Assembly (NCBI RefSeq): GCF_032878975.1
Contig: NZ_CP043875.1
Location: forward strand, 620,001-684,000
From: Methanoplanus sp. FWC-SCC4
Lineage (GTDB): Archaea > Halobacteriota > Methanomicrobia > Methanomicrobiales > Methanomicrobiaceae
DNA: 64,000 bases
Reading direction: 5' to 3'
This document shows positions 15,545 to 16,162 of this stretch, one piece after another (the first letter of the stretch is position 1; each line of letters opens with the position of its first letter). The notes under the pieces are model-generated. The model did not search any database. It was not told the DNA's origin and saw only the letters and a list, made by a program, of their open reading frames with translations. The translations under genes were made by a program, and so were the position numbers.

Positions 15545-15994
15545 TTAGTATTTTGCCAGACCTGGAATTGTTTCTACAACACTCTCTTTTGCTTTATGCG
15601 CAACACCATCGATGAACGCTCTTCCTGCCGGAGAAACTACACGTCCGTCTTTGGTGTTCTCAACGAAACCTGCTGCTTCAAGCTGCTGAAGAGCCTTACG
15701 GGTTACTGAACCTGATCCTCTTCTGAACTGGTATGGTTTTGAACCGCGGTCCTGTTTACCACCATAGAATGATCTAAGTCTCTGGACACCTACTGGTCCG
15801 TCAACATACACACGGCGCAGAATTGATGCTGCACGTTTGAACCACCATTTTTCATCTTTTGGTGGCATCTGTTTGTGGACACCGGTTTTGGCAAAGTTAG
15901 CCCACTCTGGAGTCTCGATCGCATCGAGCTTTTCAAGCTCACCAGCCACTTTCTCGATTAAGACATCTGGTGGGATATCATATACTGTTGTCAT
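15545..15994 (-). CDS. rps19e: 30S ribosomal protein S19e
   Basis: A 149-aa small-subunit protein with the winged-helix eS19 fold. It begins MTTVYDIPPDVLIEKVAGEL and carries WWFKRAASILRRVY, GVQRLRSFYGGKQDRG and ALQQLEAAGFVE, the conserved rRNA-binding core. The ATG at 15994 is preceded by GAGTGGT. A 13-codon upstream extension in frame is disfavoured because it lacks conservation and would run into the leader hairpin region. It is the first gene of the operon after a structured leader. Confidence 0.97.
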   Translation of the reverse strand: MTTVYDIPPDVLIEKVAGELEKLDAIETPEWANFAKTGVHKQMPPKDEKWWFKRAASILRRVYVDGPVGVQRLRSFYGGKQDRGSKPYQFRRGSGSVTRKALQQLEAAGFVENTKDGRVVSPAGRAFIDGVAHKAKESVVETIPGLAKY

Positions 15995-16147
15995 TTTATA
16001 ACCACTCTTTAATTTGTGCTCAACCATTATCATTCAAATGATTCAGGTTGTCATGCTAATGGCAAAGCCACTTTCATGGCTCATTAGCAGTCTCTATATA
16101 TTGTAAAGATATGTTTTTATATCTTTTGAGAGCTGTCTTGAGACTGC
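15995..16147 (-). promoter_or_regulatory. Promoter and structured leader of the rps19e operon
   Basis: Read toward rps19e, a TATA-like ATATAAAA lies inside a perfect 8-bp inverted repeat (16105-16112 with 16119-16126). The promoter is flanked by GAGACTGC (16140-16147) and its complement GCAGTCTC (16087-16094). A transcript starting about 25 nt past the TATA would begin near 16092, just before a hairpin at 16055-16088 with a 7-bp outer stem (GCTAATG/CATTAGC) and a 5-bp inner stem (AGCCA/TGGCT). The inverted repeats are directly seen; promoter position and regulation are inferred. Confidence 0.5.
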
Positions 16148-16162
16148 ATAAAAAAAGTCATT

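Follow-up and report, generated by a model that had tools for sequence, protein, structure and literature searches.

On the minus strand of the window (the whole 64,000-nt stretch of DNA that was analyzed), genes for an Rpr2-type RNase P subunit (16728–16408) and YhbY (yhbY, 16411–16163) are followed by a gap and then by rps19e and genes for a dsDNA_bind protein, which we take to be of the PDCD5 family, DUF7411, L39e, L31e, eIF6 and L18A/LX. The rps19e coding sequence (15545–15994, minus strand) starts with ATGACAACA, its ATG lying at 15994, and matches Pfam Ribosomal_S19e with an E-value of 6.1e-53. Directly after the yhbY stop codon there is a poly-T run (16150–16156, minus strand) that could serve as the terminator of the upstream unit. 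We assign the segment from 15995 to 16147 to the rps19e operon as its promoter and 5′ leader, S19e being the first protein encoded. A search of Rfam at the gathering score gave no match for the leader, two tRNAs being the only matches in the whole window.

Three nested inverted repeats had been described in this segment from the letters alone. All three are found where they had been placed, exact and on the minus strand, and they exceed chance in this genome. The first is a palindrome over the TATA box with perfect 8-bp arms (AAAGATAT/ATATCTTT, 16105–16112 with 16119–16126, spanning 16105–16126); the second is a pair of outer arms (GCAGTCTC/GAGACTGC, 16140–16147 with 16087–16094); and the third is a two-part hairpin (TGCTAATG/CATTAGCA, 16082–16089 with 16054–16061, spanning 16054–16089) that encloses AGCCA/TGGCT and is seen both as a fold and as an inverted repeat. 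The 153-nt region holds three perfect inverted repeats of at least 8 bp, whereas dinucleotide shuffles hold 0.18 on average; none of 500 shuffles gave three such repeats and 17% gave at least one, a test that is optimistic because the region was chosen after the repeats had been seen. Compared with shuffles, the 34-nt hairpin on its own folds at −14.4 kcal/mol (z −3.85) and a 106-nt segment of the leader at −26.5 (z −3.45). The minimum free energy (MFE) fold also contains a second leader hairpin, CAACC..GGTTG (16021–16050, minus strand), which is likewise an inverted repeat and was absent from the earlier list.

Conservation was read from relatives. A search for S19e matched 58 of 60 genomes, our own included, and 57 upstream regions were read, the remaining match being a start-less fragment. 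Neither the TATA palindrome nor the GCAGTCTC arm could be accepted as conserved: perfect 8-bp palindrome arms occur in one of the 57 loci and arms of at least 6 bp in three, while the outer arm is exact in one of the 56 loci with sequence there and has one mismatch in two more, the single perfect case being this genome each time. For these two repeats only, chance or species-level repetition in an AT-rich gap is the probable explanation, as their confinement to one genome would lead one to expect. Against it stand the 500 shuffles described above and the same-family loci L002 and L006, in which 7 of the 8 palindrome positions are kept as judged by eye; the palindrome may go some way back among these nearest relatives. 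The case also carries a warning: a palindrome close to a TATA box may beat shuffles in one genome and yet be perfect in none of 56 relatives.

The promoter itself fared differently in the same comparison. A BRE/TATA element, CTCAAAAGATATAAAA (16115–16130, minus strand; order consensus CTCGAAATATATAAAA), was recognized by its position and its match to the consensus. The distance from the first base of the best TATA-consensus match to GACTG is 38 nt in 53 of 57 loci and 37–40 nt in the other four, and a match of at least 10 out of 16 is found at the fixed position in 62 of 64 in-order (Methanomicrobiales) loci, a set made up of the 57 loci and seven more. Over the predicted start site lies an order-wide block, C.AATA.RTAAAGACTG.TA (16085–16104, minus strand), which comprises the initiator and the first mRNA bases. 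With no requirement for GAC, the block scores 14 or more out of 17 in 63 of the 64 in-order rps19e upstream regions, the lone exception being L112 (score 12), compared with none of 47 outside the order, which belong to other families of the phylum and score 13 at best. A score of 14 is reached by 35 of another 58 distinct loci, taken from named GTDB genomes, and the titles of these 35 carry names from Methanomicrobiales or denote unassigned archaea; the 23 that score lower are of the Methanosarcinales type or come from Methanobrevibacter, Archaeoglobales, Methanocellales, one genome labelled Clostridiales and the unassigned L236 (score 13). Removal of L181, which has 7 nt upstream, and of duplicates had reduced the regions from 191 to 169. 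Invariant columns in the 57 loci are −33, −32, −27, −9, −8 and −1; the invariance of GAC in that set is there by construction, since the anchor search demanded [AG]GAC[TC][GA].

With a BRE/TATA element at a fixed distance from a conserved start, the region has the make-up of a TATA promoter, and the claim that rps19e possesses one of its own is borne out through the order at near-fixed spacing. Conservation gives good support to a strong promoter and predicted mRNA start that are specific to the order at this r-protein gene. Archaeal core promoters are built from a BRE, a TATA box, a proximal element and an initiator. The rps19e region resembles them in element order, spacing and purine start, but differs by its strictly conserved start-site block with a gene-specific tail. 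Outside the order, GATAGATTAATC was observed, exact or with one mismatch, in 11 of 69 rps19e upstream regions, in several of them about 20 nt past a TATA-like stretch; the carriers (L118, L122, L123, L125, L127, L148, L151–L153, L198 and L202) belong to families f8, f11, f16, f19 and f30 and include two named Methanocellales loci.

If the TATA element sits ∼28 nt ahead of the start (PMC8553660), transcription would begin at ∼16091, and the near-invariant T/A pyrimidine–purine step points to 16095. We use 16095 (range 16097–16091, minus strand) as the predicted start, so that the mRNA 5′ end probably lies at ∼16095. The sequence-only reading had made its leader depend on a transcript start that is not downstream of 16055, and the predicted start falls upstream of that position.

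Downstream of the start, the 5′ arm ACTGYTA (16085–16091, minus strand) is near-invariant in the 57 loci. Variation in leader length falls almost entirely downstream of GACTGYTA, amounting to 27–41 nt in 53 loci and 77–170 nt in 11. In the family of this genome, closing arms of the UGCUAA/UUAGCA type enclose inserts of 4–134 nt; other partners of the 5′ arm are AACAGU directly before GAGG (e.g. L199 and L214) and GUUACC (L024). RGCA, a possible partner of UGCU, is present in 21 of 26 same-family leaders versus 7.2 expected, these being related sequences. For 30 representative leaders (26 from 25 genera, with g8 represented twice, plus four further loci), Fisher's method gave p-values of 1.4e-4 for MFE and 4.3e-4 for arm pairing, values that treat kin sequences as independent. 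Individually, 5 of the 30 fell below 0.05 for MFE, all of them long leaders, and 3 of the 30 for arm pairing. A larger set of 100 related leaders gave a Fisher p of 4.4e-8 in mononucleotide shuffles, with 14 of 100 below 0.05; it consists of leaders with a block score of at least 14 of 17, plus L112 and L236, and being defined by score is no independent count.

RNAalifold applied to 65 short leaders returned no consensus pairs, from an alignment of short leaders that may be faulty, and alifold on 14 short own-family leaders predicted no pairs. In the A2 alignment, which left out 16 leaders longer than 55 nt and collapsed identical leaders, 78.7% of the cells of the helix are paired versus 78.2% in shuffles, with covariation of 0.068 versus 0.065; sliding the helix lowers pairing to 18–58%, in comparison with a register that was picked on these same sequences. 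Pairing counted from the Shine-Dalgarno sequence, with L112 excluded for want of a Shine-Dalgarno match, was 64.6% versus 63.9% shuffled, with covariation at shuffle level. With a 22-leader subset, alifold found ACUGUU/AACAGU, with 6 pairs and a covariation term of 0.02. Of the in-order leaders, seven have a length of just 27 nt, and a mismatch persists in the most frequent arm pair of this class. RNAalifold on L15e leaders gave 9 pairs, an energy of −9.4 and a covariation term of +0.99; since this is a weak result for what is probably the published eL15 leader, a test of the alifold type is not very sensitive here. The 5′ arm varies too little to show covariation, which leaves a helix neither proven nor excluded by these data.

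The expectation that pairing would be kept in relatives is consequently borne out in one part, arm pairing above chance over the 30 leaders and RGCA in the same family, and fails in another, since the 65 short leaders share no common fold and covariation equals that of shuffles. Likewise, a conserved, hairpin-capable element at the mRNA 5′ end stands, but the 34-nt hairpin itself is one lineage's version. The pairing excess is modest and leader folding is weakly supported. Three same-family loci (L009, L011 and L012) were observed to carry a hairpin, CUAAYGUACCG/CGGUAYGUURG, in which the differences are one-sided in each pair and pairing is kept, plus a second GC hairpin.

The leader of this genome measures 98 nt from GACTG to AUG and is among the 11 long leaders of the 64; a leader insert that folds into extra hairpins is a minority trait. 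Its UGCU can find a partner either in the near AGCA, as in the 34-nt hairpin, or in a second AGCA (16017–16020, minus strand), which in an alignment with L002, L004 and L006 is positioned like the insert-closing UUAGCA of relatives. The Shine-Dalgarno sequence takes the form GTGAGG or GAGAGTGG in the order. Here, the Shine-Dalgarno-like AAGAGTGGTT (16000–16009, minus strand) includes AGTGGTT, which can pair with the 5′ GACTGCT, and this GACUGCU/AGUGGUU pairing is the one preferred by alifold on our own, L002, L004 and L006 sequences. It is possible that the leader adopts two or three alternative states. By eye, two overlapping short reading frames are seen at 16043–16084 on the minus strand, one of them with an ending, ATGACAACCTGA, that echoes the gene start. 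A short upstream ORF, likewise read by eye in this leader, was set aside, as it sits in the lineage insert with scant room for a Shine-Dalgarno site.

An element acting purely as RNA fails to account for the block, 12 nt of which extend beyond GACTG on the upstream side, for the most part ahead of the predicted start. A purely DNA element, either an extended core promoter (BRE, TATA, proximal element and initiator) or a transcription-factor site over the start, with RNA pairing incidental, is a substantial possibility that falls short of an even chance. It would account for the near-rigid spacing, for conservation from −12 to +7 and for covariation no higher than in shuffles, and it gains from signs that the initiator is partly shared. 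A matrix built on positions −12 to +2 of the rps19e promoters, with a threshold at 95% of shuffles, was passed by 14 of 21 L15e and 10 of 29 S6e upstream regions, two of the S6e matches (L263 and L264) lying ∼107 nt upstream in apparently coding sequence. The L15e promoter of this genome, CCAATATGTAAAGAACC, is almost the rps19e order consensus, and a pattern for the initiator, built on rps6e and rps19e, matches perfectly in the genome at rps6e and rps19e alone. However, only 3 of 22 S8e and 3 of 29 S17e regions passed the matrix threshold, little above the 5% expected, and with up to two mismatches the rps6e/rps19e pattern gave 73 matches versus 139 for a reversed control, from which we conclude that the initiator is not general. 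Closing arms around inserts of variable length would also be unexpected for a DNA site. As a control for conservation, the best 20-mer windows scored 15.4–17.1 of 20 for S6e and S17e upstream regions versus 15.5–16.8 for S19e; the control windows look coding by eye, so this comparison does not decide.

The apparent specificity of ACTGYTA for rps19e also argues against a DNA element. The 12-mer TARAGACTGCTA has a single exact match in the genome, the one at rps19e. With one mismatch there are 11 matches, 9 of them inside ORFs of at least 104 aa, on which ground the whole block was rejected as a genome-wide promoter motif; of the two intergenic ones (L061 and L066), L061 has a TATA-like stretch upstream and no plus-strand ORF of 60 aa overlapping the next 590 nt. 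In 37 of the 60 genomes, AATANRTANAGACTG has 43 matches, six of which are off the expected place: four in ORFs of at least 390 aa, L108 only in a 77-aa ORF, and L109, which is the rps19e leader repeated at a contig end. The block therefore seems to join a partly shared initiator half to an rps19e-specific half, ACTGYTA.

Related arrangements were noted at other r-protein genes. Many rps8e upstream regions (L332–L353) have, by eye, a start region like TATAGCACTTCAG, and in L346 and L347 a CUUCAG/CUGAA pair closes round a hairpin. The rpl15e leaders (L354–L374), probably the published eL15 r-leader, show conserved GGAATGTGGC..GCTGAACCT..GGTGA, in many loci directly after an rps19e-like initiator. 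We regard as unlikely a Methanomicrobiales start-site code in which an initiator close to TANAGA would fix the mRNA 5′ end, followed by a gene-specific 5′-terminal tag and a hairpin beside the Shine-Dalgarno sequence, each mRNA being sensed by its own protein (rps19e, rpl15e, rps6e and perhaps rps8e). Such a code would combine r-leaders with an archaeal equivalent of the eukaryotic TOP idea.

An RNA element in the leader is plausible, and S19e or L31e might exert control through it. The best reading, to which we give slightly less than even odds, is that the rps19e upstream region combines a strong promoter of the r-protein type with a candidate r-leader for S19e; autogenous control by S19e through such a leader is the most likely role we can assign to it, a fair guess at clearly less than even odds. 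In this proposal, the mRNA would start at ∼16095, directed by a near-rigidly spaced TATA/BRE element and by an initiator similar to those of some other r-protein genes. The transcript would open with the apparently rps19e-specific ACUGYUA, which in many lineages could pair with bases of the Shine-Dalgarno region or with those immediately before it, and surplus S19e would bind the 5′ structure and block entry of the ribosome.

Alternatively, a 5′-terminal stem might act constitutively, with no regulatory protein involved, by shielding the mRNA end or tuning initiation. The foot of the stem is the mRNA 5′ end, and the stem lies directly before GAGG in many lineages, as this explanation would have it, but it is missing or weak in several genera and its sequence is more conserved than its stability, and we consider a constitutive stem improbable. 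In the 16S rRNA of this genome, GGGACCGCC..GGAGGAAGGAATGG, presumably h40, loosely resembles GACUG-stem-GAGAGUGG. Mimicry by the leader of the S19e site on 16S rRNA (h37–h41, near which human eS19 is located; PMC9249338) is nevertheless very improbable, and was rejected at the level of sequence, because five leader words match 16S no better than shuffled queries (11–100% of shuffles equal them), the best match is at 16S position 82, far from h37–h41, and the rRNA reads GACCG where the mRNA reads GACUG.

The candidate S19e leader can be compared with known systems. Few cis-regulatory RNAs have been confirmed or predicted in archaea (PMC7247131), and the archaeal r-leaders reported are those of S15 (Halobacteria and Methanomicrobia), eL15 (Euryarchaeota) and L4 (Eckert and Weinberg 2020, PMC7247131). 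Neither S19e nor eS19 appears in the main text of that study, and a leader for rps19e was not found in the literature among the matches listed. Like the r-leaders described there, the rps19e leader is a conserved, lineage-bound 5′ UTR element that precedes an r-protein operon and has a candidate autogenous ligand; it lies consistently in this position, given the predicted start, in 63 of 64 in-order rps19e loci. It differs in that three of the four r-leaders were rated likely on covariation, whereas conserved structure with covariation above shuffles was not seen in the 65 short leaders or the A2 alignment. The L7Ae k-turn leader of the archaeal L7Ae mRNA (PMC5539422, PMC6298567) is a case in which an r-protein binds the leader of the mRNA encoding it, although no k-turn was recognized by eye in the rps19e leader. 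Human RPS19, a homologous protein, binds its own mRNA according to a title cited in PMC9249338, a likeness at the protein level.

If the candidate rps19e leader is real, it would add a new r-protein ligand, and its 5′-terminal placement would suggest a joint evolution of start-site choice and leader function in these methanogens.
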